This document shows positions 20,519 through 36,605 of a DNA stretch of 64,000 bases, one piece after another; positions within the stretch are counted from its first letter, which is position 1; each line of letters opens with the position of its first letter. A program made the translations under genes and the position numbers. The stretch comes from Planifilum fulgidum (GTDB lineage: Bacteria; Bacillota; Bacilli; Thermoactinomycetales; DSM-44946). The notes under the pieces were generated by a model. It saw only the letters and a list, made by a program, of their open reading frames with translations, ran no database searches and was not told where the DNA came from. The stretch lies in the NCBI RefSeq assembly GCF_900113175.1, contig NZ_FOOK01000012.1, positions 2,771 to 66,770 on the forward strand. The letters run 5' to 3'.

Positions 20519-20551
20519 TGTAACCCGTTTGCAACCCGTTCCTGGTATCTT
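20519..20551 (+). promoter_or_regulatory. SARP-type activator site and -10 box of the ligase-regulator operon
   Basis: TGTAACC (20519-20525), four bases, TGCAACC (20530-20536), nine bases, then TATCTT (20546-20551) as the -10. There is no consensus -35; the repeats occupy that place. The arrangement equals that at 25401-25433. SARP/AfsR proteins bind heptamer direct repeats with 11-bp period ending about 8 bp before the -10 (established for Streptomyces). Confidence 0.7.
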
Positions 20552-20588
20552 CCTTGTGGGATTTTGCATCACGGGAATACGAGGAGCG

Positions 20589-22088
20589 ATGTCGGTGTAC
20601 CGGGAAACGGGTTGGCTCGAAGGGCGCAAACGGCTTGCTCCGGATCAGATCGCCCTTGTTGACGGAGAAACCGGAAGGCGCTGCAGTTACGATCTCCTGT
20701 ACCGGCGCTCGGTCCGGGCGGCCCGGTATTTGTCGGAGATGGGCATTTCAAAGGGAGACCGGGTGGCATTTCTTGCTCCCAACGATATGGCCGTTTTCGT
20801 CTGTTTTTTTGCCTGTGAGCGGCTGGGGGCGATTTTTGTCCCCCTGAACTGGAGGCTTTCGCCCCGGGAATTGAACGGGATCCTGGAAGATGCCGGGCCG
20901 AAAGTGTTGCTATTTCACCGGCGAATGGAGCATTTGGCGGCAGCGCTCGCCGCCCCGTCGATCGTCCCCTTGGATCTTTTGGATCCGGACGATCCGCCGG
21001 AGCCGGAAGGAGAGGAAGAGGCGGATTATCCCTCGCTGTCGGACCCGGCCATGATCCTCTATACGGGCGGGACGACGGGGAAGCCGAAGGGGGTGGTGCT
21101 CACCCATGGCTCCATCTTTTGGAACTCCATCAACACGATTTTGAGCTGGCAGCTGACGGCGAAGGACAGGGCCCTCTCCTGCTTGCCCCTGTTCCACACC
21201 GGGGGATTGAACGTCCTCTCCCTTCCGGTGTTGCAGGCGGGGGGGACTCTCGTCATCATCGACCGATTCGACCCTGACAGGGTGATGGATGTGATTGACC
21301 GGGAACGGTGCACCATCGCCCTGATGGTTCCGACGATGTACCACCTGCTCATCCGGTCGCCCCGGTTTGCCGAAAAATCCTTCCCCACCATGCGGGAGTT
21401 TCTCTCCGGGGGCGCGCCGTGCCCGCGGGAAGTGCACCGGGCCTTCGCCAACAAGGGGCTTCCCTTCCGGGAGGGTTACGGCTTGACCGAGGCGGGACCC
21501 AACAATTTTGTCACCGATCCTTCCACCGCCCGGAAAAAACCCGGAACCGTCGGGAAGCCGATGCTCTACAACCAGGTCCGGATCGTCTCGGAGGACGGGA
21601 CGGATTCCCCGGCGGGAAGCGTGGGAGAGATTTGGATCCGGGGCGGTCACCTGTTCGACCGTTACTGGAACAATCCGGAGGCGACCGACGAGTCGCTGGT
21701 CGACGGCTGGCTCCGGACCGGGGATTTGGGGATGCGGGATGAGGAGGGGGACTTTTACATCGTTGGGCGAAAAAAGGAGATGATCGTCACGGGGGGAGAA
21801 AACGTTTATCCTGCGGAAGTGGAACAGATCATCGCCGAACACCCCGAAGTGGAACAGGTGGTCGTGGTGGGTGCGCCGGATCCCAAATGGGGGGAGGCGG
21901 TGGCGGCCGCCGTCGTTCCGAGGAAGGGTTCCTGCCTGACCGGCGAGGGACTGAGGTCCTACCTGAGGGGCAGACTGGCCGCGTACAAGATTCCCAAAGC
22001 CGTCCTTTTCATGGACGAACTGCCGAAGACGCCCGTGGGCAAGATCGACAGGCGGGCCATCCTCCGCCTCTTTGTCCAAAAGGATTGA
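20589..22088 (+). CDS. Acyl-CoA ligase (AMP-forming, class I adenylating enzyme)
   Basis: A 499-residue protein that would activate a carboxylic acid to an acyl-AMP and then acyl-CoA. Visible motifs are the P-loop YTGGTTGKPKG, GYGLTEAGP, WLRTGDLG, the hinge VGRKKEMIVTGGENVYPAEVE and the catalytic lysine in TPVGKIDRR. It is of typical length for a medium/long-chain or aromatic acid ligase; the chain preference cannot be read. ATG 20589 follows GAGGAG closely. It is the first gene after the SARP-type promoter and 20 bp upstream of the regulator gene, so the two are probably one transcript. Confidence 0.92.
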   Translation: MSVYRETGWLEGRKRLAPDQIALVDGETGRRCSYDLLYRRSVRAARYLSEMGISKGDRVAFLAPNDMAVFVCFFACERLGAIFVPLNWRLSPRELNGILEDAGPKVLLFHRRMEHLAAALAAPSIVPLDLLDPDDPPEPEGEEEADYPSLSDPAMILYTGGTTGKPKGVVLTHGSIFWNSINTILSWQLTAKDRALSCLPLFHTGGLNVLSLPVLQAGGTLVIIDRFDPDRVMDVIDRERCTIALMVPTMYHLLIRSPRFAEKSFPTMREFLSGGAPCPREVHRAFANKGLPFREGYGLTEAGPNNFVTDPSTARKKPGTVGKPMLYNQVRIVSEDGTDSPAGSVGEIWIRGGHLFDRYWNNPEATDESLVDGWLRTGDLGMRDEEGDFYIVGRKKEMIVTGGENVYPAEVEQIIAEHPEVEQVVVVGAPDPKWGEAVAAAVVPRKGSCLTGEGLRSYLRGRLAAYKIPKAVLFMDELPKTPVGKIDRRAILRLFVQKD

Positions 22089-22108
22089 AGTTCCGAGAGG
22101 TGGATGCC

Positions 22109-25100
22109 ATGAGAAGGGGAATGCGGCTCCTGAAAACGAAATGGATCCCTCCGGCTCCCAAATCCAGCACCTTTCGCAGGCCGGAAGTGTCGAAAAAGTT
22201 GAAGGGGTTGGTCCCTCTCACCCTGGTCCATGCCGCTCCGGGTTACGGAAAAACCACCGCCGTCGCCTGTTTCATGCAGGACGAACAACTGACTGCCGGC
22301 TGGTATCGAATCGGAGAGGACGATGCGAAACCGGCCGTTTTTTTCCGATATCTGCTCGGTGCGCTGAATGTCCGCTTTCCTTCGGTCGGCGAAAAATGGA
22401 TGCGGCACTTGGAGCGGGAGGAGGAAGACCGGGAAACGGAAGTTTGGTACGACCTGGGATCGGATCTCCTCAATGAATTGGCCCTGCTCGGGAAAAGGTC
22501 CGTGCTCGTGCTGGACAACTGGCATTTGGCCGAAGAAAATCCGCTCCTTTCCGGATGGATGGAGTGGTTTTTTTCCCATTTGCCGGAAAATTCCCGTCTC
22601 GTTCTCATCAGCCGGACCCGCCCCGATTGGTCCCGGTTGGCGGAGATGCGGGTGAAGGGGAGCCTGCTGGAGGTGACCGGCGACGACCTGTCCTTTTCCG
22701 AGGAGGAAGCGGAGGTGTGGCTGTCCGACGAATACGGGCTCGCCCTTTCGCCGGAGGATTTCAGGCGGCTTCATGGGCAGACGGGAGGATGGGTGCTGCC
22801 CCTTCGGCTGATCGGGGAGAAGTTCGCCGCTTCCCGAAGGTTGGAAGAGGGGTTTGAAAAAAAGATTGAGGAGGATTTGTTTCCTTTTCTGGACGCGGAG
22901 GTCTGGGAAAGGCAGCCTGAAGAAGTCCGCCGGTTTTTCATGCAGACGGCGCTTCTGGAGAAGTGGTCTCCGGAGGATTTGGAGGCGCTGTTTCCGGAGG
23001 CGGAGGCCCGGCGAATCCTGGAGGAACTTCTCCGTCAACATCTTTTTTTGGCGCCGGCCGAGGGGGGGCAGATTCCGTTACCTTCCCCTCTTCCGGGATT
23101 ATCTCCGGGAAAAGCTGCGCCGGAAGTCCCGGGAACAACGGGTTTTCTTTTACCGTCTCGCCGCCGAACATGCCTTTCGGAACCGGCGGTTTGACGAGGC
23201 GATTCGCCTGATGCTGGAGACGGGGGATGCGGAGAGCATCGGCCGGTTTTTGGAGGAACACGGCTCGGTGATGATGGATCGGGGCCGGTTGAACCTGATT
23301 GAAAAAGCCCTTTCTGAATTGTCCGAAGAGGTGAAGGATCGGCGCTATTGGCTCTGGGTGCTGGAGGGGGAGGTGAATCGTTACCGCTGTGCCTACGCGC
23401 GGGCGAGGGATTGCTATCTCCGCGGGGAAGGAATTGCCCGCGAAAGGGGAGACTTCCGGGGAGTCAGCATGGCGCTCGAAGGGCAGGCGCGAATTTTCCT
23501 CGATACGATTCAGCCCAGGGAGGCGGAACGCCTTTTGAATCGCGCCCTGGATGTGCTGGAAGGCATCCCGGGAGCCGAGGAGCAGCGGAGTCGCCTCACC
23601 CGTTTGATCGCCGAAAACCTGGTCAATTACGGCCGGGCCGATGATGCCGGCGAGTGGGTGGCCAAGAGCCGGGAGCAACCCGACGGGGAGGAGGAGTTGG
23701 AGGCCCGCTATTTCCTGCGAACCGGCCGGCTCGTTCAGGCCAAACAAATCCTTGAGCGGAAAAAGCGGGCGGAGGCGGGCCGCGAGGATCGCCGCCTCCC
23801 CCGGGCTCACCGGGAGACGGATGTTCTTTTGTCCCTGATCCACGCGATGATGGGGGACCCCGAAATGGCAAAGCAATATGCCGAGGCCGGGATCATGCAG
23901 GGGGTCCGGTGGCAGGTTCCCTTTGTGGAGGCCTGCGGATGGATGCGGATGGGTCATGCCGTTCAGCTGTTGAACCGGTATGAGTCGCAGCTGGCCGCCG
24001 ACTGTTACCGGACGGCCCTGGATCTGATGGAGGAGATGAAGGTTTCGCGAGGGAAAGCGGAACCGCTGATGGGCCTGTGTCTGCTCCACGGGCGGGAAGG
24101 CGCCGTCGAATCGGCTTTGGCCTGCGGGGAGGAGGCTCTGGCCGAAACGGAGAAAGCGAGGGATTTTTGGCTTTCCACCTTGATCCGGCTTTCCATGGGG
24201 ATCGCCTGCGCCCATGCCTCCCGGTGGGAGGAGGCCGCCGGATGGTTTGCCGATTGCAGCCGGGACTTCGCCCGCTGCGGCGACAGCCACGGTTTGACCG
24301 TCGCTTCCCTGTGGCAGGCCCTGACCGCCTTCAAATTGAAGGAACAGGATCAATTCTCCACATGCATGGAGCGCTTTTTAAACCTGATGCGCACGGGGGA
24401 ACACGATTACCTCCTCCGGCGCCGCACCCTCTTCGGCCCGTCGGATGTGCAGAAGGTGACCCGGCTGCTGTTTGAGGCCCAGCGGCAAGGCGTGAAGGAG
24501 GAGTATGTCTCCCATTTGTTGTCGGAGTTGGGCTTTGAACGGATCACCTTCCACCCCGGCTACACCCTGCGGATTGAGACCCTGGGCGGTTTCCGCGTGT
24601 GGCTGGGGGATGAGCCGGTGGAGGAGAAGGGTTGGCAAAGGTGGAAGGCGAGGGAGCTCCTCCAATTGTTCATCACCCGGCGGCAGCATCTGCTTCCCAA
24701 GGAGGAGATTCTCTCCCTCCTGTGGCCGGGGGTGGAGAAATCGGCGGCATCCCGGGATTTTAAAGTGGCCCTCCACGCGCTGAACCAGGTGTTGGAACCC
24801 GGCCGTCCGGCCCGGTCGACCCCCTTTTTCATTCAGCGGCAAGGGTCGATGTACGGATTGAACCCGGCGTCGGGATTTGAGTTGGATGCCGCCGAATTTG
24901 AGCGGCGGATTCTGGAGGGATTGCAAACCCGGGATCCGGATCGCGCCCGGAGCGTTCTTGCCGCCGGACTGTCCCTGTATAAGGGGGAGTATCTTCCGGA
25001 ACGGCGTTACGATGATTGGTGCATGGAGGAGAGGGAGCGGCTGGATGCGCTGTTTTTGCGGGGAGCGGAGCGGCTGGCGCAGCTCTTGTTGGAAGCGGGG

Positions 25101-25370
25101 GACGATGATGGGGTGATCCACTGGAGCGAACGCATTCTTCGGCGGGATCCCTGCTGGGAGGAGGCGTACCGCCTGCTGATGATCGCCTATTTCCGCAAAA
25201 ACAACCGCCCCCAGTCCATCAAATGGTATCTCCGTTGCCTGCAGACGCTGGAGCGGGAGCTTCACATCGAGCCGATGCCCGAGACAGAGCGGCTTTACCG
25301 GATGATCCGGGAAGGAAATCTGGTGCTTGAACCCCGGTTTGACGGCGCTCCGGAGGCTTCCGCCCCATGA
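22109..25370 (+). CDS. Large SARP/AfsR-type transcriptional activator, frameshifted in a G run
   Basis: When the frame is corrected this is a ~1,086-residue STAND-like regulator. It has an NTPase with Walker A APGYGKTT (about 43-50) and VLVLDNWHL, then a long helical TPR-like region. The C-terminus has an OmpR/SARP winged helix (about 815-915; LGGFRVWLGDEP, WKARELLQLF) and a bacterial transcriptional activation domain (about 920-1070; ELDAAEFERRI, EEAYRLLMIAYF). No LuxR helix-turn-helix is present. ATG 22109 follows GAGAGG. The first frame is lost at the G7 run 23062-23068 and the rest is read in the next frame; six Gs would give one continuous protein. It likely controls the operon it lies in and the importer operon downstream. 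Confidence 0.85.
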
Positions 25371-25400
25371 GAGTACGCAATACGCGGCCGGTTTGCCCGC

Positions 25401-25433
25401 TGTAACCGCTTTGTAACCCTCCGGGGCTATGAT
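25401..25433 (+). promoter_or_regulatory. SARP-type activator site and -10 box of the importer operon
   Basis: TGTAACC (25401-25407), four bases, TGTAACC (25412-25418), nine bases, then TATGAT (25428-25433). Repeat length, gap and distance to the -10 are identical to 20519-20551. An imperfect cre (CcpA) match also overlaps the first repeat, a less likely reading because the other promoter lacks it. Confidence 0.72.
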
Positions 25434-25465
25434 CGGATGGAAGAAGCTTCAAGGAGGGGTGAGGG

Positions 25466-26680
25466 ATGAGGAGGCGGATCAGCCGCATCGGATGGGCTTT
25501 GGTGTTTTCATCCATATTGGTGCTGGGCGCGGCTTGCGGTTCGGCGGGATCCGAATCGGATGCCGAAAGCGGAGAGCCGATCCGGATCGGGGTTCTGATT
25601 TCAAAGACGGGAGCGCTGGAGTCCTACGGAAAACAGACGATCAACGGGTTCGAACTGGGAATCGAATATGCCACCGGAGGAACGAAGAAGGTGGCGGGAC
25701 GACCCATCGAGTGGATCGTGGAGGACACGGAGACCAAGCCGGATGTGGCGGTCCAGAAGGCGACGAAACTTTTGGAGGAGGACGAGGTGGACATTCTGGT
25801 GGGAGCGTCCAGCTCGGCGGACACCCTGGCCGTCCTGCCCCTGGCGGAGGAATATCAGCGGGTGATGGTGGTGGAACCCGCGGCGGCGGACAGCATCACC
25901 GGGGACAATTGGAACCGGTATATTTTCCGGACGGCGCGCAATTCCTCCCAGGACGCCGCGGCCGGGGCCCGAGCCATCGCCGCCCCGGGGGTGAAAATCG
26001 CCACCTTGGCACCCGATTACGCCTTTGGTCGGGACGGAGTGGCCGCCTTCAAAAGGGAGGCGGAGAAACTGGGGGCCGAAATCGTTCTGGAGGAGTATGC
26101 CGATCCGAAGGCCACGGATTTTACTCCGAATATCCAGAAAATTATTATGAAAAAGCCGGACTATCTCTTCGTCATCTGGTCGGGGGCCAACACTCCCTGG
26201 AAGCAGCTGGCGGACATGAAGGTTCAGGAGCGGGGGATCAAGATTTCCACCGGCGTGCCGGATTTTGCGGCGATGCAGGTCATGAAGCCGATGGTCGGGA
26301 TGGAAGGCTTCACGGTGTATCACTACACCCTTCCGAAAAATCCGGTCAACGATTGGCTGGTGAAGGAGCATCGGAAGCGCTTTGGAGGTCCTCCGGACCT
26401 GTTCACCCCCGGGGGGATGTCCGCGGCGATCGCAATTGTCGAAGCCTTGAAAAAAACCGGCGGGGATCCGGAGGCGGAGCGGTTGATTCAAACGATGGAG
26501 GGCATGTCTTTTGAAACACCCAAGGGGAAGATGACGTTCCGCCCGGAAGATCATCAGGCCCTTCAGGCGATGTACGCGGTGAAGCTGGAAAAGAAAGAAG
26601 GTTCCGATGAGCCGGTGCCGGTGTTGATACGCGAAATTTCACCGGAGGAGGCGGCGCCGCCGGTCGAAAACAAGCGGTGA
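25466..26680 (+). CDS. ABC importer substrate-binding lipoprotein (LivJ-like)
   Basis: A 404-residue extracytoplasmic binding protein. The signal peptide ends in LGAAC (Cys24 lipobox), and the rest is a periplasmic-binding-protein type 1 fold (IRIGVLISKTGALESYGKQ opening, TPGGMSAAIAIVEAL near the end). The family binds branched-chain amino acids, amides, urea and aromatic or short-chain acids. The ligand here is not readable, and the neighbouring acyl-CoA ligase argues for a carboxylate. First gene of the importer operon, 33 bp downstream of the -10 box. Confidence 0.9.
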   Translation: MRRRISRIGWALVFSSILVLGAACGSAGSESDAESGEPIRIGVLISKTGALESYGKQTINGFELGIEYATGGTKKVAGRPIEWIVEDTETKPDVAVQKATKLLEEDEVDILVGASSSADTLAVLPLAEEYQRVMVVEPAAADSITGDNWNRYIFRTARNSSQDAAAGARAIAAPGVKIATLAPDYAFGRDGVAAFKREAEKLGAEIVLEEYADPKATDFTPNIQKIIMKKPDYLFVIWSGANTPWKQLADMKVQERGIKISTGVPDFAAMQVMKPMVGMEGFTVYHYTLPKNPVNDWLVKEHRKRFGGPPDLFTPGGMSAAIAIVEALKKTGGDPEAERLIQTMEGMSFETPKGKMTFRPEDHQALQAMYAVKLEKKEGSDEPVPVLIREISPEEAAPPVENKR

Positions 26681-26754
26681 GGGCGGCGGATCGGCACCCG
26701 ACCGCGGGAAGAAGCGGTGCGTGCCTTTCCTCGTCGGAAGGGAGGGATGAACCG

Positions 26755-27515
26755 ATGGAGACCCTACTGGAGACCCGTGATTTGACCGTCTCTTTCGGGG
26801 GCATGTCGCCGTCAACGGGGTGAGCGTCAACATCCCAAAAAACCGCCTCACGTCCATCATCGGTCCCAACGGCGCGGGAAAGACCACCTTTTTCAACCTG
26901 CTGAGCGGGCAACTGAAGCCGACCCGGGGGAGCATCCGGTTTAAGGGGCGGGACATCACCCGCCTCTCTCCGCACGCCCGGACCCGGGAGGGGATCGGCC
27001 GTTCCTTCCAGATCACCAACGTGTTTCCCGGCCTGACGGTCCGGGAGAACGTCCGGCTGGCGGTCCAATCCCGCATGGGCATCCGCTATCCGATGTGGAC
27101 CCGGGCCGACAAATACCCGAAAGTGGAGGAAAAGACGACGCATTGGCTGAGGATGGTTCGCCTCCTGCCCAAGGAGAATCTGCCGGCCAAAAATTTGACC
27201 CACGGGGAGCAACGCCAACTGGAAATCGCCATGCTCCTCGCCCTGGAAACGGAGCTGCTTTTGCTGGATGAGCCGACCGCCGGCATGTCCCGGGAAGAGG
27301 TGCCGGCCATCCTGGAGCTGCTCCGCCTTCTGAAGGAGGGAGGGGAACGGACCCTTCTCCTGATCGAACACAAGATGGACCTGGTTCTCAACCTTTCGGA
27401 CCGGGTGTTGGTGCTGGCCGGCGGAAGTCTTCTGGCGGAGGGAACGCCGGAGGAGATCATGAGGGACGAACGGGTGCAATCGGTCTACTTGGGAGGGGTT
27501 GTTCATGCTCCTTGA
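26755..27515 (+). CDS. ABC importer ATPase (LivG-like), frameshift near the N-terminus
   Basis: The ATG at 26755 follows GGAGGGATGA and encodes METLLETRDLTVSFGG, the normal start of a LivG protein. The frame is then lost at a G5 run (26797-26801). From there the next frame supplies the expected VAVNGVSV and the rest: Walker A GPNGAGKTT, THGEQRQLEIAMLLA signature, Walker B LLLLDEPTAGM and the H-loop IEHKMD. One more G would make an intact ~253-residue protein. Without it, only initiation at the internal GTG 26820 would be possible, losing the first strand. Confidence 0.85.
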
Positions 27516-28206
27516 GTTGAGGGATCTCCACACCGTGATCGGACGGCACCACATCCTGCAGGGGGTTTCCTTCGGGGTTCCCCGGGGGGAGGTGACGGTG
27601 CTTCTGGGGAGGAACGGTGCGGGGAAGAGCACGACGCTCCGGTCGATCATGGGGCTTTCCCCGGTGGTGCGGGGGGAGGTACGGTTTGAAGGGGAGGCGA
27701 TCCAGTTCCTGCCCACCCATGTGATCGCCCGGAAGGGGATCGGATATGTTCCCGAGGATATGGGCCTTTTCGGCGATCTGACGGTGGAAGAAAATCTGAA
27801 GTTGGCCATGGGAAAGGAAGATCCCCCCGCGGCGGAGCGGCTCGCATGGATTCTCGGGCTCTTTTCCGACTTGAAGATGTATTGGCGGCGAAAAAGCGGA
27901 GATTTGAGCGGGGGACAGAAACAGATGCTGTCGATCGCCCGGGCCTTCGTCCAGAACCGGTCTCTTCTGCTGATCGACGAACCGAGCAAGGGGCTCTCTC
28001 CCATCATGGTGGGCAAAATGGTCGAAGGGATCCGGGAGATCAAGGAGCGGACCACCATTTTGTTGGTGGAGCAGAACTTTTCCATGGCCCGGGCCGTGGG
28101 CGATCGGTTTGTGATCCTGGACGGCGGCCGCTGCGTCCATAGCGGCCCGATGGAAGAATTGAAAAGGGACAAGGAATTGCAGAGGCGGTTTTTGGGAATC
28201 GCCTGA
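27505..28206 (+). CDS. ABC importer ATPase (LivF-like)
   Basis: A 233-residue ATPase with Walker A GRNGAGKST, signature DLSGGQKQMLSIARA, Walker B SLLLIDEPSKGLSP and VEQNFSMA. ATG 27505 lies 7 bp after GGGAGGGG and overlaps the livG-like 3' end by 11 bases. It would pair with the LivG-like ATPase to power the LivH/LivM-type channel. Confidence 0.92.
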   Translation: MLLELRDLHTVIGRHHILQGVSFGVPRGEVTVLLGRNGAGKSTTLRSIMGLSPVVRGEVRFEGEAIQFLPTHVIARKGIGYVPEDMGLFGDLTVEENLKLAMGKEDPPAAERLAWILGLFSDLKMYWRRKSGDLSGGQKQMLSIARAFVQNRSLLLIDEPSKGLSPIMVGKMVEGIREIKERTTILLVEQNFSMARAVGDRFVILDGGRCVHSGPMEELKRDKELQRRFLGIA

Positions 28207-28266
28207 GGCGATTCCGCAGGGCCGTTTTGAAAGGGAGTTTCCGCGGGGAAGTGGGTGTGGGTCCGC

Positions 28267-29127
28267 ATGGACATTGTGATCAATCTGATCATCAACGGTT
28301 TGGCGACGGGAATGCTGCTTTTTCTCCTGGCCGCGGGATTGACTCTCATTTTCGGTCTCATGCACGTGCTCAATTTCGCCCACGGCGGCCTGTTCGTCTG
28401 GGGCGCCTATGCCGGAGTGTGGCTGTATCTTTGGACCGGGAGTTTTGCTGCGGGGCTTTTGGGCGCCTGTTCGGCCGGGCTGCTCTTGGGCTTTGTCATG
28501 GAACGCCTGATTATCCGGCCGGTTTACGGGGATCCCACGCGGCAGATTTTGATCACGCTCGGTGTGATGCTGGTGCTGAGCGAACTGGTGAAGGTATTCT
28601 GGGGTTCCAACCAGATCAGCGTTCCGCCCCTCGACTTCCTGGAGGGCAGCTGGCGGATCGGCGAGATCGTCCTCATCAAGTACCGGGTGTTTGTCATAAC
28701 GGCGGGGGTTTTGATCTTTGCGCTGCTGCAGGGGCTTTTGAAGAAGACGCGGGTGGGGCTGATCATCCGGGCGGGCGCGATCCATCGCGAGATGGTGGAA
28801 TCGCTGGGTATCAATGTTAAACGATATTTTTTGTTGGTGTTCATGCTGGGAGCCGCACTGGCGGCGTTGGCCGGCGTGCTGTTCGCTCCCTATTCGGGCG
28901 CGATTTATGCGGAAATGGGGATGGAGTACGCGATTCTCGCCTTCATCGTCGTGGTGGTGGGGGGACTGGGCAGTGTGTCCGGTTCCGCTTTGGCGGCGCT
29001 GATGGTGGGGCTGGCCAGCGCCTTCATGAATTATTTTCTTCCCGATGCCGCTTTGGCGGTCAACATGCTGCTGATGGCGGCGGTGCTCCTGTTCAAACCG
29101 TCCGGCCTGTTCGGAGCGAGGGGGTGA
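28267..29127 (+). CDS. ABC importer permease (LivH-like)
   Basis: A 286-residue integral membrane protein with about eight segments and the LivH hallmarks GLTLIFGLMHVLNFAHGG near the N-terminus and VVVGGLGSVSGSALAAL near the C-terminus. ATG 28267 is preceded by a weak site (GGGTGTGG); an in-frame start 12 bases earlier is an alternative. It is followed after 4 bp by the second permease. Confidence 0.92.
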   Translation: MDIVINLIINGLATGMLLFLLAAGLTLIFGLMHVLNFAHGGLFVWGAYAGVWLYLWTGSFAAGLLGACSAGLLLGFVMERLIIRPVYGDPTRQILITLGVMLVLSELVKVFWGSNQISVPPLDFLEGSWRIGEIVLIKYRVFVITAGVLIFALLQGLLKKTRVGLIIRAGAIHREMVESLGINVKRYFLLVFMLGAALAALAGVLFAPYSGAIYAEMGMEYAILAFIVVVVGGLGSVSGSALAALMVGLASAFMNYFLPDAALAVNMLLMAAVLLFKPSGLFGARG

Positions 29128-29131
29128 GGGG

Positions 29132-30136
29132 ATGGTTCGGCGAATCGCCGCTTTCCGGTCGCGGCTTCTATGCGGCGGCATCACGGCGCTTCTTTTTTTG
29201 CTTCCCTTCTTGACCGATTCCCGCAGCCTCTTGATTCTGCTGACGCAGATATTCATCTTTGCCGTTTTTGCCATGAGTTACGATCTGCTGTTGGGATACA
29301 CCGGCATCGTTTCCTTCGGCCATGCGATGTTTTTCGGAATCGGGGCCTACACCGTCGGGATCTGGATGAAGCGGGGGGAAGCGACGACGGAGAGCTTTTT
29401 GCTCTCCATCCTGGTGACGATCGCCCTGGCCGCGTTGGTCAGTTATCTGGTGGGCATGTTGTCCCTGCGGCTGAAAAGCCACTATTACGCCATGCTGACC
29501 CTGGCCTTCGCCGGTTTGTTTCAGGTGGCGGCGGAGAAATGGCGTGGCCTCACCATGGGCAATGACGGGTTCACCTTTTCGGTCCCCGATTGGCTGCGGG
29601 ACCGGGAAACCGTCTATTTCATCGCCCTGTTTTTCATGATTTTCGCCTTTTACTTCCTGCTTCGATTCACCCGGTCGCCGATGGGGCGGGTGCTGCAGGC
29701 GATCCGGGAGAATGAGCAGCGGACGGAAGCCCTGGGATATCGGGTGCTCGATTACAAAGTGGCGGCCAGCGTCCTGTCGGGGATTCTCGCCGGCCTCAGC
29801 GGACTGATGTACGGATTGACCCTCCGCTTCGTCAACACGTCGGTTTTTTCCGTCGAGATCACCCTGGACGTGCTGCTGATGACCATCATCGGCGGTGTCG
29901 GCACCCTGGTGGGGGGCATCGTCGGGGCGGCGCTGATCGAGCTGACGCACGATGCGCTGACCGATTTGGCCAAGGTGCACCCGCTGTTCGAGCGATGGAT
30001 CATTTTGTTCGGCATCGTGTACATTTTGGCTGTCCTCTTTTTTCCCAAAGGGATTGTCGGAACGCTCCAAAATTGGCGGTTCGCCCGCCCGGTGCGGAGA
30101 GAACCCGATGCCGGATTTGAGGGGGAGAAGGTCTGA
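29132..30136 (+). CDS. ABC importer permease (LivM-like)
   Basis: A 334-residue membrane protein with LivM features: YDLLLGYTGIVSFGHAMFFG near the N-terminus, AIRENEQRTEALGY in the cytoplasmic loop and IIGGVGTLVGGIVGA near the end. The stop codon overlaps the ATG of the condensing-enzyme gene by one base, so importer and enzyme are translationally coupled. Confidence 0.92.
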   Translation: MVRRIAAFRSRLLCGGITALLFLLPFLTDSRSLLILLTQIFIFAVFAMSYDLLLGYTGIVSFGHAMFFGIGAYTVGIWMKRGEATTESFLLSILVTIALAALVSYLVGMLSLRLKSHYYAMLTLAFAGLFQVAAEKWRGLTMGNDGFTFSVPDWLRDRETVYFIALFFMIFAFYFLLRFTRSPMGRVLQAIRENEQRTEALGYRVLDYKVAASVLSGILAGLSGLMYGLTLRFVNTSVFSVEITLDVLLMTIIGGVGTLVGGIVGAALIELTHDALTDLAKVHPLFERWIILFGIVYILAVLFFPKGIVGTLQNWRFARPVRREPDAGFEGEKV

Positions 30137-31173
30137 TGGCGACCCGCGAGAGGATCGGCATCCTGGCCACCGGCGTCTATCTTCCGGAACGGGTGATGAC
30201 GGGGCGGGAGATAGCGGCGGCCGCCGGCCTGCCGGTGGAGGTGGTGGAAAAAAAGATGGGGATCGTGCAGAAACCGGTACCCGGAGATGACGATCACACC
30301 TGTGAGATGGGGGCCCGCGCCGCCCGGAGGGCCATCGCCGGGGCGGGAATCGATCCGGAGGAGATCGATGTGGTCGTTTACGTCGGTGAAGAGTACAAGG
30401 AATACCCCGTTTGGACCGCGGGGATTCACCTGCAGCGGCTGGTGGGGGCGAGGCGGGCCTGGGCCTTCGACGTGTCCCAGCGCTGCGGGACGTTCATTCT
30501 GGGGCTCAAGTTGGCGAAGGACATGATGCGCGCCGATCCGTCGGTCCGCACGGTGCTCCTGGCCGGCGGATACCGAAATGTGGACTTGGTGGATTACCGG
30601 AACGAGCGAACCCGGTTCCTGTTCAATCTGGCAGCCGGAGCGGGGGCGGCGATTCTGCGGCGGGGTTTGTCCCGAAACGAAGTGCTGGAAAGTCACATCA
30701 TCACCGACGGCTCCTTCTCCGAGGACGTGGTGATCCGGGCCGGGGGAACCAAGAAGCCGCTGACTCCGGAGGGGATCGCCCGGGGGGATCACCTGCTGGA
30801 TGTCCCGGATCCCCGGGGGATGCGGCGGCGGCTGGAGGAGCGGTCGATCCGCAACTTTCTCGAGGCGATCCGGCAAGCCTTGGCCAAGAGCGGTTATACG
30901 GAGCGGGACATCGATTATCTCGGCATTCTTCACATGAAGCGGTCGGCCCACGAACGGGTTCTGGAGGAGCTGGGGCTGTCCGGGGACCAGACGATTTATC
31001 TGGATCATTACGGACACATCGGGCAGTTCGATCCCGTTTTGTCCCTGGAGCTGGGGCTCCGGGAGAAAAAAATCCGGGAAGGGGATCTGGTCGTCCTCGT
31101 CAGCGCGGGGATCGGTTATGCCTGGGGGGCGACGGTGATCCGGTGGGGAGAAGGAACGTCCAAGGAGGGTTGA
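30136..31173 (+). CDS. KAS-III-like (FabH-fold) condensing enzyme or acyltransferase
   Basis: A 345-residue thiolase-fold protein with a FabH-like opening (IGILATGVYLPERVMTG) and active-site Cys117 in FDVSQRCGTFILG. The second catalytic residue appears as His266 (LGILHMKRSAH). The Asn of the canonical Cys-His-Asn triad is replaced by His294 (DHYGHIGQFDP). It lacks the HQAN motif. It is therefore unlikely to be the housekeeping FabH and may condense or transfer the acyl group made by the nearby CoA ligase. It is coupled to the importer genes and 3 bp upstream of a hydrolase gene. Confidence 0.85.
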   Translation: MATRERIGILATGVYLPERVMTGREIAAAAGLPVEVVEKKMGIVQKPVPGDDDHTCEMGARAARRAIAGAGIDPEEIDVVVYVGEEYKEYPVWTAGIHLQRLVGARRAWAFDVSQRCGTFILGLKLAKDMMRADPSVRTVLLAGGYRNVDLVDYRNERTRFLFNLAAGAGAAILRRGLSRNEVLESHIITDGSFSEDVVIRAGGTKKPLTPEGIARGDHLLDVPDPRGMRRRLEERSIRNFLEAIRQALAKSGYTERDIDYLGILHMKRSAHERVLEELGLSGDQTIYLDHYGHIGQFDPVLSLELGLREKKIREGDLVVLVSAGIGYAWGATVIRWGEGTSKEG

Positions 31174-31176
31174 ACC

Positions 31177-32070
31177 ATGAAACCGATTCGCATCGGCACG
31201 GTGGAACTTTCCAACGGGGAGAAGCTGGGGTATCGAATGCGGGAGGGAGGGGAACGGGCGCTGGTCCTGATCCACGGAAATATGACTTCTTCCGCCCATT
31301 GGGACCTGGTCCTGGAGCGAATCGACGAGCGGTTCAAGGTGTATGCCGTCGATCTGCGGGGATTCGGCCTTTCCACCTATCGCCGTCCGGTGGAGTCCCT
31401 TCGGGATTTTGCGGCCGATGTGAAGGAGTGGATCGACGCCCTGGGACTGAATCGCTATTCGGTCATGGGCTGGTCAATGGGAGGCGGAGTGGCCATGCAT
31501 CTGGCGGCGGATCGCCCGGAGCAGGTGGAAAAACTGATTCTCCTCGCGTCGGTGTCGACCCGGGGCTACCCCTTTTATGAGACCGATGACAAGGGGCAGC
31601 CCACGGGCCGGCGGCTTAGGACCAAAGAGGAGATCGCCGCCGACCCGGGAAAGACGCTTCCGATCCTCCGCGCCCTGAAGCGGCGGGACAAGGAGTTTCT
31701 GCGCAAGTTGTGGGAAACGCTCATTTACACCCATCGCCGCCCCGATCCGGATCGGTATGAGGCGTATCTGGAGGACATGCTGACCCAGCGGAATTTGGCG
31801 GAGGTGTATCACGCGCTGAATACCTTCAACATCAGCGATCGGCACAACGGGCTGGTGGGCGGGACGGGGGAGGCGAAGCGGATCGTCGCTCCCACCCTCG
31901 TGCTGTGGGGGGATCGCGACCGCGTCGTGCCGGAGAGGATGGCTTTGGAGATTGTGGAGGACATCGGGCCGGGCGCCCGGCCGGTCGGCCTGACCGATTG
32001 CGGCCATTCCCCGCTGGTGGATGATCCGGATCAGCTGTTGGATCGGGTGACGCAGTTTCTCGATGAATAG
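31177..32070 (+). CDS. Alpha/beta hydrolase
   Basis: A 297-residue alpha/beta-hydrolase-fold protein without a signal peptide. It has an oxyanion region (VLIHGNMTSSAHW), a nucleophile elbow GWSMGGG, Asp in LWGDRDRVVPE and His in DCGHSPLVDDP, giving a Ser-Asp-His triad. The insertion of about 60 residues after the third helix forms a cap. It is the last gene of the importer operon and might hydrolyse an ester or thioester linked to the transported substrate. It is convergent with the PHB-depolymerase-family gene 16 bp away. Confidence 0.9.
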   Translation: MKPIRIGTVELSNGEKLGYRMREGGERALVLIHGNMTSSAHWDLVLERIDERFKVYAVDLRGFGLSTYRRPVESLRDFAADVKEWIDALGLNRYSVMGWSMGGGVAMHLAADRPEQVEKLILLASVSTRGYPFYETDDKGQPTGRRLRTKEEIAADPGKTLPILRALKRRDKEFLRKLWETLIYTHRRPDPDRYEAYLEDMLTQRNLAEVYHALNTFNISDRHNGLVGGTGEAKRIVAPTLVLWGDRDRVVPERMALEIVEDIGPGARPVGLTDCGHSPLVDDPDQLLDRVTQFLDE

Positions 32071-32086: not shown

Positions 32087-33073
32087 TCAGCGGGAGGAGA
32101 AGAATTCCCACAGGATGCGGCTGGCCTCCGGCCCCCGGGAATCGGTGTAGGTCCCGGAGGCGCTTCCCCCGGACCAGGCGTGCCCCAACCCGTTTACGAT
32201 CCATTTTTCCAGCAGGCGGTTCCCGTGACGGTCGTTGTAGATGTAACGGGTGTAGGTCCGTCCGTTGGCGCTTCCGGTGATGGTTTGATCCGCGGCGGCG
32301 TCCACCGACCCATTGTCGCTAAAGTCGTCGGCGTAATCGTTGGTCTGGGCCCATTGGGCGAGGGTTTGGTGGCCGTTGATGGGGGAGACGGTGTAGTCGG
32401 CGGTCCCGTGGAGGACGAGGACCGGCATCAACCGGCTGTTGCCGCCCATTTCCCTGTAGGCCAAATACCCCTTCGCGTCCGGATCCGGCTCTCCGTACAG
32501 CATGGCCATCGTCGCCTCCAGCAGGGAGTTGGCCGCGTCGTATTCCAAACCGGAATGAACGGCCACCCCGCGGAAAACATCGGGATAGGCGGCGCCCATG
32601 ATCACGCTCATGGCTCCCCCCGCCGAGAACCCGGCGACATAGACCCGGTTTCCGTCGATCCGGTAGCGGCTCTTCACCCAGTCCACCATTCCCTTGATGA
32701 CGGCCGGTTCTCCGGATCCCCGGTGCTGGTTGGCGTCCAAAAACCAGTTCCAACAGCGGTTAATGTTGGCAGAGGGATTCATCTCCGGGTAAAGGACGAT
32801 GAAATTCTCTTCTTCCGCCAGCCGATTCATCTGCGTACCCGCCGCAAAGTCATCGGCGTTCTGGGTGCAGCCGTGAAGCATGACCATGAGGGGAACCGGT
32901 TCCCCCCTATAGCCTCCGGGAACATACACTTTGAAATGGAATCCGCCTCCATACTCATGGCGGGTGAAGCTCCCGGCGGCCAAAACCGGTTTGGTTTCCG
33001 CCGTCAATGCCGCACCGGTCAAGAGTGTGAGGACAAGAATCCAGACGATGCGTTTCCAATTCGGGGAAGCCAC
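32087..33073 (-). CDS. Secreted PHB-depolymerase-family esterase
   Basis: A 328-residue exported protein: GTG start, signal peptide to about residue 33 (VLA-AGS), then an esterase-PHB/LpqC-type alpha/beta hydrolase domain. It has LMVMLHGCTQNADDFA (oxyanion), the nucleophile elbow GFSAGGAMS, VLHGTADYTV (acid) and GLGHAWSGG (His). The family cleaves polyhydroxybutyrate, feruloyl or other esters outside the cell. GAGGAG lies 11 bp before the GTG, and a TATAAT is seen at 33115-33120 on this strand. It abuts, but is convergent to, the importer operon, so it may feed it with released acids; this link is speculation. Confidence 0.9.
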   Translation of the reverse strand: MASPNWKRIVWILVLTLLTGAALTAETKPVLAAGSFTRHEYGGGFHFKVYVPGGYRGEPVPLMVMLHGCTQNADDFAAGTQMNRLAEEENFIVLYPEMNPSANINRCWNWFLDANQHRGSGEPAVIKGMVDWVKSRYRIDGNRVYVAGFSAGGAMSVIMGAAYPDVFRGVAVHSGLEYDAANSLLEATMAMLYGEPDPDAKGYLAYREMGGNSRLMPVLVLHGTADYTVSPINGHQTLAQWAQTNDYADDFSDNGSVDAAADQTITGSANGRTYTRYIYNDRHGNRLLEKWIVNGLGHAWSGGSASGTYTDSRGPEASRILWEFFSSR

Positions 33074-33183
33074 CGTGACGGCATCTCCTCGTTACAATCG
33101 TCAATCTATTCAAAATTATAATTCGAATCGTCACAAACCAATTGCAAACCGGTTACAGAAGGAGTGGAGTGCCAAGGATAAAG

Positions 33184-33234: not shown

Positions 33235-34899
33235 TCACCGGGTGAAGTGGAAGACGACGGATTCATAGGGTCTAAGGAGAATCCGCCTGAAATCGGAGGG
33301 GGCGTCTTCGTAGTTGGCGATGAGCACCCGGTGTTTCCAGCGGGCGAAGGGAAGGCCCTCGGGCAGGTGAAATTCGGTCTCCTTTTCGGAAAAGTTGTTT
33401 ACGACCAGAAGCGCCTCGCCTTCCAGACTGCGCGTATAGGCCCACAGGCGGGGATGGTCTTCCAAAAGGAGTTCGTATTTTCCGTAGGTGATGATATCGT
33501 AGTCTTTCCTCAGCCGGATCAGTTTTTTGTAGTGATGGAGGATGGAACGCGGATCCTTGAGTTCCTTTTCCACGTTGATCTCTTTGTAGTTGGGAGCGAC
33601 TTTGATCCAGGGCTCGACGGTGGAAAATCCGGCGTATTTTTCGCTGTTCCACTGCATGGGCGTGCGCGCGTTGTCCCGGGATTTTTGCTTGATGGCTTCC
33701 ATGACGGCCTTTTTGTCCGGGTGAAGGCGGTAGGCGTTCAATGTTTCCACATCGCGGTATTCATCGATGGATTCAAAATGGGGATTGGTCATGCCGATCT
33801 CTTCGCCCTGGTAAATAAAGGGAGTTCCCTGGAGCATGTGCAGCGCCGTGGCCAGCATGGTGGCCGACTCGCGCCGAAAGACGGTGTCGTTTCCAAACCG
33901 GGAGACGACGCGGGGCTGATCGTGGTTGCACCAGAAAAGGGCGTTCCAACCCCCGCCTTCATGCATCCCCCTTTGCCATTCGGACATCACTTTTTTCAAT
34001 TTCAAGAGGTCGAAGGAGCCTTTCACCCATTTCTCACCGCCGGGATAATCCACCTTCATGTGGTGAAAGCTGAAAATCATGTTCAGTTCCTTCCGGTCCG
34101 GCCGGGAGTATTTCACCCCGTGTTCGATGGTGGTGGAGGACATTTCCCCCACGGTGATCAGGTTGGTGCCTTCCAGCACCTCCCGGTGCATTTCCTGAAG
34201 GAACTCGTGGACCCTGGGGCCGTCGGTGTAAAATTTGCGGCCGTCGTTCATCGGCCCCTCTCCGGTGGCGTCCGGAAAGCGCTGATCCTTGGAGATCAGA
34301 TTGATGACGTCCAGGCGGAATCCCGCGACGCCCATGTCCGCCCAGAATTTCATGATTTTGTAGATTTCCCGCCGCACCCGTTCGTTTTCCCAATTCAGGT
34401 CCGCCTGGGTTTTGTCGAACAGATGCAAGTAGTATTGCTGGGCCGTCTCGTCATACTCCCAGGCGGAACCGCCGAATTTGGAGCGCCAGTTGTTGGGCCG
34501 ATCCCGCCAGATATAAAAGGAGCGGTACGGATTGTCCGGGGATTTGCGGGCCTCCTGAAACCATTTGTGCTCGGTGGACGTGTGGTTGAACACCATGTCC
34601 ATGATGATGCCGATCTTGCGCCGGCGCGCTTCTTCGACCAGCCTTTTGAACTCCTCCATCGTTCCGTAGCGGGGGTCGATGGCGTAATAATCGCTTACGT
34701 CATAGCCGTTGTCCCTTTGCGGAGAGGGATAGATCGGCGTGATCCAGATGTAATCGACGCCCAGATAGGCGAGGTAGTCCAGTTTTTCGATGATGCCCGC
34801 GAGATCTCCGGTGGGTTGGTTTTTGGCGCTGTAAAAGCTTTTGGGGTAGATCTGATAGATGACCGATTTTCTCCAGTCTTCGTTTCTGAGGTTCTTCAT
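33235..34899 (-). CDS. treC: Trehalose-6-phosphate hydrolase (GH13)
   Basis: A 554-residue cytoplasmic GH13 enzyme that splits trehalose 6-phosphate to glucose and glucose 6-phosphate. The catalytic residues are visible: nucleophile Asp197 (GFRLDVIN), acid/base Glu252 (TVGEMSS) and Asp327 (CNHDQPR). The start MKNLRNEDWRKSVIYQIYPKSF is typical of TreA/TreC and related oligo-1,6-glucosidases. The preceding trehalose-type PTS gene in the same operon decides for TreC. ATG after GGAGG. No treR repressor is nearby. Confidence 0.93.
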   Translation of the reverse strand: MKNLRNEDWRKSVIYQIYPKSFYSAKNQPTGDLAGIIEKLDYLAYLGVDYIWITPIYPSPQRDNGYDVSDYYAIDPRYGTMEEFKRLVEEARRRKIGIIMDMVFNHTSTEHKWFQEARKSPDNPYRSFYIWRDRPNNWRSKFGGSAWEYDETAQQYYLHLFDKTQADLNWENERVRREIYKIMKFWADMGVAGFRLDVINLISKDQRFPDATGEGPMNDGRKFYTDGPRVHEFLQEMHREVLEGTNLITVGEMSSTTIEHGVKYSRPDRKELNMIFSFHHMKVDYPGGEKWVKGSFDLLKLKKVMSEWQRGMHEGGGWNALFWCNHDQPRVVSRFGNDTVFRRESATMLATALHMLQGTPFIYQGEEIGMTNPHFESIDEYRDVETLNAYRLHPDKKAVMEAIKQKSRDNARTPMQWNSEKYAGFSTVEPWIKVAPNYKEINVEKELKDPRSILHHYKKLIRLRKDYDIITYGKYELLLEDHPRLWAYTRSLEGEALLVVNNFSEKETEFHLPEGLPFARWKHRVLIANYEDAPSDFRRILLRPYESVVFHFTR

Positions 34900-35001
34900 G
34901 GGGTTCCGCCTCCTTGACTTGATGGCGAGGAGACAAAAGGGAAGGGGCTGGTTTCCGCAAGTGGTTCGTCGGGAAACCGGCCCCGTATCGCCTCCGGGGG
35001 A

Positions 35002-36444
35002 TCAGGCTGGGGATTTTTGGGTCCTTTTTTTGCCGATGTGGTGAAACAGAATCGTCAGCACGAAGGGCACGATGAGGACAATCGCCATGCCGACCAGGAA
35101 CATCGGGATGTGTTGCACCATGATGGAGATGAAGGCCGGCAGTCCCCCGACGCCGATGGCGGGTGCCAACACGCCGTTGAGGGAGATGAAGACCGCCCCC
35201 AGAGCCGAACCGGTAAGCGCCGCGTAGAAGGGGAATTTATGCCGCAGGTTCACCCCGAACATCGCCGGTTCGGTGATGCCGAAATAGGCGGACAGGGCCG
35301 AGGTGGAAGCCATGCTCTTCTCGTTGGCGTTTTTGGCGACCCAGAACATGGCGAGGGCCGCGCTTCCCTGGGCGATGTTGGACAGGGCGATCATCGGCCA
35401 GATGAAGGTGCCGCCGTTTTGAGTGATCAGTTGCAGGTCGACGGCGATGAACATGTGGTGCATCCCCGTGATCACCAGGGGAGCGTACAGGGAACCGAAA
35501 AGCAAAGCTCCCACCGCCGGGGCGGCATCGTAGATCATCACGATTCCCTGGGTGAGCAGGTCCCCGAGGTGACGGGTGACGGGTCCGATGACCGCCAAGG
35601 CGAGCCCGCCGGTGATGACGATCGTCGTGATGGGGACCACAAGCAGTTGGATGGCGTTGGGCACCCGCTTTTTCAGCCATTTTTCAACGACGCTCAGGAC
35701 GTAGGCCGCCACAAACACGGGCAGAATCTGGCCCTGGTAACCCACTTTTTCGATCTGGAAAAGGCCGAGAATGTCGAAATAGGGAATCTCCCCTTCGATT
35801 CCCGCCGCCGCCTTTCCGTAATTCCAGGCGTTCAAGAGGTCGGGATGAACCAGAAGCAGTCCCAACACGATTCCCAGGATTTCCGAGCCTCCGAACCGTT
35901 TTGCGGCGGACCAACCGACGATGGCGGGGAGGAAGACGAAGGCGGTGTTGGCCATCGTGTTGATGAGATCCCACAGGCCCTGGAGATCGGGGTAGGCTTC
36001 CAGCAGACTTTTGTCCTCGATAAACAGCCCTTCCGCCCCGATCAGGTTGTTGATTCCCATCAGCAGACCGGCGGTGATGATGGCCGGCAAAATGGGCATG
36101 AACACATCGGAAAAGGTTTTGATCAATCGCTGGAATGGATTCAGTTTTTTGGCCCCCACCTCTTTCACGTCCGAGACGGTGGCGGTTTCAACGCCGGCCA
36201 GTTCCACAAATTCCTTATATACTTTTTCCACCTCGTTGGGTCCGATGACGATTTGAAAAACGCCCGCATTGGTGAAATGTCCCTTTACCAATTCCACCTT
36301 TTGCAGCTTGTCCGCATCGACTTTTCCCTCATCCTTCAGCACGAGCCGAAGCCTCGTCACGCAATGGGCCGCTTGGACGAGATTCTCTTTTCCCCCGATG
36401 CCTTGCAGGATTCCTTCGGCGATTCGACGGTAATCCTTGGACAT
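35002..36444 (-). CDS. treP: PTS trehalose-type EIIBC component
   Basis: A 480-residue phosphotransferase permease. The EIIB domain (about 1-85) has the phosphorylated cysteine in AAHCVTRLRLVL. It is followed by the EIIC membrane domain of the glucose/sucrose/trehalose superfamily (LPAIITAGLLMGINNL, ITGMHHMFIAVDLQL). No fused EIIA is present. The glucose-type EIIA at 40240 could supply phosphate, as in Bacillus where TreP depends on a separate EIIA. ATG 36444 is 6 bp from AAGGAGG; an ATG 6 bp earlier touches it. First gene of treP-treC, with about 100 bp to the hydrolase gene. Confidence 0.92.
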   Translation of the reverse strand: MSKDYRRIAEGILQGIGGKENLVQAAHCVTRLRLVLKDEGKVDADKLQKVELVKGHFTNAGVFQIVIGPNEVEKVYKEFVELAGVETATVSDVKEVGAKKLNPFQRLIKTFSDVFMPILPAIITAGLLMGINNLIGAEGLFIEDKSLLEAYPDLQGLWDLINTMANTAFVFLPAIVGWSAAKRFGGSEILGIVLGLLLVHPDLLNAWNYGKAAAGIEGEIPYFDILGLFQIEKVGYQGQILPVFVAAYVLSVVEKWLKKRVPNAIQLLVVPITTIVITGGLALAVIGPVTRHLGDLLTQGIVMIYDAAPAVGALLFGSLYAPLVITGMHHMFIAVDLQLITQNGGTFIWPMIALSNIAQGSAALAMFWVAKNANEKSMASTSALSAYFGITEPAMFGVNLRHKFPFYAALTGSALGAVFISLNGVLAPAIGVGGLPAFISIMVQHIPMFLVGMAIVLIVPFVLTILFHHIGKKRTQKSPA

Positions 36445-36605
36445 ATCCATCCTCCTTTTCTGTGACTTCAGAAAGCCCGGCGACAGGATGTTTTTTGGTG
36501 CGGAAAAACAAAGGCATTATGCCCTAAAAAACGCCCAGGGTCAACCGGGGGGAGAAATTGCCGCGCCCCCCGTCTTATCCAGTGTAGGGAACACCGGGGG
36601 AAATT

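Follow-up and report, generated by a model that had tools for sequence, protein, structure and literature searches.

The two operons at 20519–32070 of a 64,000-nucleotide stretch of Planifilum fulgidum DNA (contig NZ_FOOK01000012.1, positions 2,771 to 66,770; henceforth the window) bring together proteins whose closest described counterparts belong to several systems. The large Streptomyces antibiotic regulatory proteins (SARPs) and SARP-LAL regulators, such as AfsR and PimR, carry an N-terminal SARP unit of winged-helix and BTAD domains along with NOD and TPR regions, and PimR has the heptamer CGGCAAG as its repeat. SARP promoters follow a rule of 11-bp repeats, the last of which lies 8 bp from the -10 element (PMC10936776), and SARP-LAL regulators use heptamers with 4-bp spacers (PMC5930380). 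Intracellular polyhydroxyalkanoate (PHA) depolymerases of the Bacillus thuringiensis PhaZ type have the role of mobilizing the cell's own granules of poly-3-hydroxybutyrate (PHB). For the secreted type-1 PHA depolymerases we found no comparable gene cluster or regulator in the literature searched. The remaining counterparts are the five-gene Liv/HAAT importers of branched-chain amino acids, whose binding proteins often take aromatic or fatty acids (PMC3223731), and the β-ketoacyl-ACP synthase III (KAS III) enzymes FabH and BioZ.

In the window, members of these families are encoded with a CoA ligase in two adjacent operons, and a secreted depolymerase gene faces them. Based on their sequences, we propose that the locus is a scavenging regulon of the Bacillota for PHB and 3-hydroxybutyrate oligomers, a reading to which we give a probability of roughly three in four. 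An initial annotation of this DNA had proposed a self-contained regulon whose genes code for an acyl-CoA ligase, a giant SARP activator, an importer of the Liv type, a condensing enzyme resembling KAS III and an α/β hydrolase. Domain and family profile matches bear out that gene content and order. The promoter elements at 20519 and 25401 do match each other, and translational coupling is seen as described: the stop codon of livM overlaps the start codon (ATG) of the KAS gene at 30136, and only 3 bp separate the KAS and hydrolase genes. The idea of a self-contained regulon is now strongly supported, and the unit reaches past 32070, where that annotation ended, to a convergent gene for a predicted secreted PHB depolymerase, which had been missed and which carries a further copy of the promoter element. 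The features of the unit are as follows.

20519–20551, plus strand: operator-promoter of the ligase-regulator operon, TGTAACC-CGTT-TGCAACC, 9 bp, TATCTT
20589–22088, plus strand: acyl-CoA ligase of the AMP-binding family, 499 residues (PF00501 and PF13193)
22109–23194, plus strand: regulator, 5' fragment, the MalT-like ATPase (NOD/STAND) part (MalT model, residues 2–312, 168.7 bits)
22854–25370, plus strand: regulator, 3' fragment, a TPR region followed by winged-helix and BTAD (SARP) domains (BTAD 83 bits; AfsR model positions 28–273)
25401–25433, plus strand: operator-promoter of the importer operon, TGTAACC-GCTT-TGTAACC, 9 bp, TATGAT
25466–26680, plus strand: substrate-binding protein (SBP) of a Liv/HAAT-type ABC importer (PF13458, 240 bits)
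26755–27515, plus strand: livG-type ATPase, frameshifted at the G5 run 26797–26801 (long open reading frame, ORF, from 26820)
27511–28206, plus strand: livF-type ATPase (PF00005)
28267–29127, plus strand: livH-type permease (PF02653)
29132–30136, plus strand: livM-type permease (PF02653)
30136–31173, plus strand: KAS-III-fold enzyme of the PRK06840 family, with C117, H266, H294 and E85 (NF005308, 512.4 bits, cut-off 315)
31177–32070, plus strand: predicted intracellular short-chain-length PHA depolymerase, PhaZ type (NF050089, 432.7 bits, cut-off 300)
32087–33073, minus strand: predicted secreted type-1 short-chain-length PHA depolymerase, 328 residues (NF050058, 326 bits, cut-off 150; TIGR01840; PF10503)
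33115–33157, minus strand: operator-promoter of the secreted depolymerase, three 11-bp repeats TGTAACC/TGCAATT/TGTGACG, 8 bp, TATAAT

The α/β hydrolase matches the NF050089 model over its full length (288/288 positions), and its closest solved relatives are the PHB depolymerases 8ynv and 8ynw (E = 9e-99 for 8ynv). Its triad of S100 (the serine of GWSMGG), D248 and H277 is invariant in the eight rows of our alignment A2, and inspection reveals no signal peptide. By these sequence features, all of them shared with the B. thuringiensis-type enzymes, it is predicted to be a PhaZ-type intracellular PHB depolymerase. It is distinguished from the granule-mobilizing enzymes by being encoded with an importer, in genomes that mostly lack PHA synthase. 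The secreted depolymerase resembles the type-1 enzymes in its score, matching positions 6–276 of the 276 of NF050058, and its N-terminus, MASPNWKRIVWILVLTLLTGAALTAETKPVLAA, resembles a Sec signal on inspection.

Both operons and the secreted depolymerase gene are preceded by direct repeats of 11 bp (TGYAACY-N4-TGYAACY), and a hexamer resembling a -10 element lies 8–9 bp downstream of them: the spacing is 9 bp ahead of the ligase and SBP genes and 8 bp ahead of the secreted depolymerase. In all three promoters, this geometry matches the published layout of SARP promoters (PMC10936776, PMC5930380), with a heptamer distinct from that of PimR. A genome-wide scan recovers exactly two perfect operator matches in the P. 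fulgidum genome, both at this locus, and none in a genome of the same genus that lacks the regulator and the cluster (G299). In G410, which likewise has no regulator, the lone perfect match was taken as chance because it lies inside an ORF. The operator upstream of the ligase is kept in another member of the genus (G300, locus L192). Across relatives, the site precedes the SBP/importer operon in 32 of 34 regulator-bearing loci versus 2 of 13 loci with no regulator in view, and in the latter two the regulator may lie beyond the fetched flank. A TAnnnT hexamer stands at a constant 9 bp from these sites, and its TA and T, which were not used in scoring, are constant at 94–97%.

The operator also tracks the regulator at depolymerase genes. 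Promoters of the secreted enzyme score at least 12/14 against it in 12 of 14 regulator-bearing genomes (the window, G300, L044, L045, G538, G399, G349, G429, G440, G472, G396 and G357; those of G495 and G460 have no site) and at most 10/14 in all nine genomes without the regulator (0/9 with a site), these contingency counts being descriptive. A genome scan allowing two mismatches independently recovers the promoters of the unlinked depolymerase genes in G399 and G349; in G440 it returns the three cluster sites only. The triple repeat of the window's depolymerase promoter recurs in a further locus from the same genus (L033). Two other occurrences of such repeats may be recorded here. In Brevibacillus (L125:11107–12445 and L122), a second perfect operator precedes a gene for a secreted Lipase_2-like hydrolase, which is followed by a second PhaZ-like hydrolase. 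The former is possibly a further secreted polyester depolymerase, and its assignment to a known PHB depolymerase family was rejected since it has no NCBIfam match and only matches Lipase_2. G000:C11:49034–49077 and G299:C9:50108–50151 also have a comparable set of 11-bp repeats in common, the latter in the same-genus genome without the regulator; this is perhaps the site of another regulator.

The regulator contains the domain set of the large, AfsR-type SARPs, namely an OmpR-type DNA-binding domain and a BTAD domain with NOD and TPR domains, the TPR_MalT match being weak and under its cut-off. It differs from AfsR and PimR in that the BTAD domain occupies residues 677–819 of the 3' fragment, i.e. 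the SARP unit is C-terminal rather than N-terminal, in its Bacillota host, and in its predicted targets, which are genes of polymer catabolism rather than antibiotic production. The protein of about 1,086 residues in the initial annotation is not one open frame: the sequence has two overlapping ORFs, 22109–23194 and 22854–25370. The frame is lost by a one-base homopolymer frameshift at either T7 (23043–23049) or G7 (23062–23068), so that about residue 317 is the last of the 5' fragment in frame. In G300 (L192), the matching stretch runs past the break point without interruption as one open frame. The livG gene similarly lacks one base in its G5 run, and its homologs, for example that of L187, have an uninterrupted frame. 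At least one further frameshift occurs elsewhere in the assembly, as judged by comparison with 400 kb of G299. The homopolymer frameshifts in the regulator and livG may be either genuine mutations or mistakes of the assembly. Scanning codon usage for such breaks was dropped owing to an excess of antisense false positives.

A scan of the named genomes with the KAS protein as query yielded 42 loci. The full order, ligase-regulator-SBP-LivGFHM-KAS-PhaZ, is found in at least 10 other genomes (L034, L036, L038, L044, L046–L050 and L110) and is common to Thermoflavimicrobium, Paenactinomyces, Cohnella and several Paenibacillus; variant clusters occur in Alkalibacillus, Cytobacillus, Oceanobacillus, Halobacillus, Evansella and Brevibacillus. 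Hence, the co-occurrence on which the initial annotation had made its proposal depend does extend, in gene set and order, across many Bacillales, and we found no homologous cluster with an already assigned substrate in the literature searched. In nearly all relatives a FabG-like short-chain dehydrogenase/reductase (SDR) gene directly follows PhaZ. The type-1 secreted depolymerase adjoins the cluster in the window, L033, L044, L045 and L048, in differing orientations. In L186–L189 it forms the end of the importer operon, and the cytoplasmic hydrolase of these loci is of a different subfamily (26–30% identity).

The importer set is complete, with an SBP of the Peripla_BP_6 family, two ATPases and two BPD_transp_2 permeases (livG being frameshifted as sequenced). 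In architecture and families it is a Liv/HAAT system; in contrast to the branched-chain amino acid importers, its best specific models fall under their cut-offs and its context points to 3-hydroxybutyrate products. The solved proteins closest to the SBP are 3n0x and 3nnd (E ~1e-109), for which we found no ligand in the literature searched. We infer, with good support from this context, that the importer takes up breakdown products of PHB, i.e. 3-hydroxybutyrate and its oligomers. The best NCBIfam models for the ligase, FadD-like and PRK06839, are both under their cut-offs, and we propose that it might be a 3-hydroxybutyrate or acetoacetate CoA ligase.

The KAS-III-like enzyme fits the PRK06840 model (512.4 bits) and not the PRK09258 model (37.7 bits). 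Its predicted structure (pLDDT, the per-residue confidence score, 93) matches the FabH/BioZ fold with Z ~39 at 23–25% identity; a relationship to 3-hydroxy-3-methylglutaryl-CoA synthase was rejected on a weak match (63 bits against a cut-off of 244) and on these fold matches. Cys117 and His266 correspond to the catalytic cysteine and first histidine of FabH, whereas the FabH asparagine is replaced by His294 in all rows, leaving the Cys-His-Asn triad incomplete, and a conserved Glu85 lies beside Cys117. The enzyme is further set apart from FabH and BioZ by the genes to which it is linked, which encode CoA ligases or CoA-transferases along with hydrolases that resemble PHA depolymerases. The transferases and hydrolases are its neighbors in Clostridia and other groups, and in Oceanobacillus it sits with a MaoC-like protein. 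In the Clostridia and Spirochaetes loci (L003–L021, L066 and L070), the transferase is of the butyryl-CoA:acetate type (14 matches among the neighbors scanned) and the hydrolases are PhaZ-like. A paralog, KAS2, is found in L035, L040–L043, L051, L104–L106 and L190; it is accompanied by a ligase of its own and in some cases by MaoC and TetR genes, and it is the sole KAS in L105 and L106. KAS2 keeps both histidines and has serine in place of both Cys117 and Glu85; this simultaneous loss suggests that the cysteine and glutamate act together.

These components can be placed in one predicted pathway. The secreted depolymerase would cut environmental PHB, the Liv-type importer would take up 3-hydroxybutyrate and/or short oligomers, and the cytoplasmic PhaZ-type hydrolase would cleave the oligomers to monomer. 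The ligase could then make the CoA thioester, and the FabG-like reductase of the relatives could interconvert the 3-hydroxybutyryl and acetoacetyl forms. Finally, the KAS-III-like enzyme might split acetoacetyl-CoA to acetyl-CoA in the retro-Claisen, thiolase-like direction. All three transcription units would be activated by the large SARP, with its MalT-like ATPase, TPR, winged helix and BTAD, through the 11-bp repeats over the -35 region. The direction of the KAS reaction is the most tentative of these steps; we raise it because the KAS gene occupies the place of the thiolase in a 3-hydroxybutyrate catabolic set, and consider it somewhat doubtful. If it holds, the PRK06840 enzymes could be new degradative cleavers of acetoacetyl-CoA (or 3-oxoacyl-CoA), using Cys117, His266, His294 and Glu85, in a widespread pathway of 3-hydroxybutyrate-oligomer import and cleavage. 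In the Bacillota, this pathway would share its SARP regulon with secreted PHB depolymerases, mostly in organisms that do not make PHB; this wider proposal is again speculative. The notion that the KAS is the cell's only thiolase was discarded, there being five full-length thiolases elsewhere in the genome. The initial annotation's outline, in which an acid or ester is taken up, activated with CoA and then used for acyl transfer or chain modification, survives, and its substrate can now be named, with good support, as PHB products.

Several observations weigh against a PHB-scavenging role. The related sequences in our counts are not independent, and shared ancestry inflates p-values. The window's own cluster is without the FabG-like SDR, and its regulator and livG are both frameshifted as sequenced. 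An ordinary 3-hydroxybutyrate pathway leaves the KAS unexplained in a genome with that complement of thiolases, and G194 and G430 retain the cluster with only a KAS paralog that has lost the cysteine. A recognized type-1 secreted depolymerase is present in only 5 of the 16 cluster genomes of the class sample, other depolymerase types not being counted. Many carriers may instead grow on monomers or oligomers that other organisms release, or on a different hydroxy ester. Extended to the whole regulon, the latter idea would make its substrate another hydroxy-acid ester or a fatty-acid-like compound, for example other short-chain hydroxyalkanoates or products of plant polyesters, the depolymerase names being broader than PHB. 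The many genomes without the type-1 enzyme, the divergent cytoplasmic hydrolase of L186–L189, the Lipase_2-like protein under the Brevibacillus operator and the frequent preference of Liv-type binding proteins for aromatic or fatty acids (PMC3223731) would all agree with it. Against this, members of two independent depolymerase families, each scoring above its curated cut-off for PHB, sit within one operator-defined regulon in several lineages, and we regard such a substrate as unlikely. Mobilization of the cell's own PHB granules, which would make the cluster a storage-polymer degradation operon, draws on homologs of the hydrolase studied as intracellular PHB depolymerases in B. thuringiensis (as cited in PMC4908106). 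Within family f135, the seven genomes that have PhaZ and lack the cluster all carry a PHA synthase. However, PHA synthase models find no match in the P. fulgidum genome and in 12 of the 15 other cluster-bearing genomes (13 of 16 in total; G194 and G430 have the synthase and G319 a fragment). This absence largely refutes such an operon, in which the importer and secreted depolymerase would moreover serve no role, and the cluster hydrolase most likely acts on an imported ester instead.

The superfamilies that co-occur in the relatives, KAS (OleA-like), hydrolase (OleB-like), ligase (OleC-like) and SDR (OleD-like), also recall an OleABCD-like condensing pathway, which would make a long-chain ketone, β-lactone or lipid from an acid supplied by the importer. 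The retention of Glu85 beside Cys117 fits this, as a glutamate beside the cysteine is expected of non-decarboxylating Claisen enzymes. OleB hydrolases, however, have an aspartate nucleophile, whereas that of the PhaZ-type enzyme is Ser100; the KAS falls with PRK06840 and not PRK09258, the SDR of the relatives is FabG-like, and the secreted PHB depolymerase and importer are left without explanation. We consider this pathway highly improbable. The anabolic lipid role, which the initial annotation had put on an equal footing, has become clearly less likely, given that the unit holds two PHB depolymerase families together with an importer.

As a scavenging regulon for PHB, a biodegradable plastic and major bacterial storage polymer, this previously unassigned cluster becomes a testable pathway in compost-type and soil Bacillota. 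It yields a candidate 3-hydroxybutyrate-oligomer importer, a predicted activator of secreted depolymerase genes together with its DNA code, and a KAS-III-like enzyme whose active site is altered and whose context is catabolic. SARP regulators, familiar from Streptomyces antibiotic clusters, are apparently tied to polymer scavenging in another phylum. The component families are known; what appears to be new is their combination, the role of the importer, control by a SARP and the KAS step, no description having been found in the literature searched. Beyond the depolymerase promoter, a gene for an α-amylase-family enzyme adjoins that for a phosphotransferase system (PTS) permease (33235–36450, minus strand), the two resembling an ordinary trehalose-type utilization pair.

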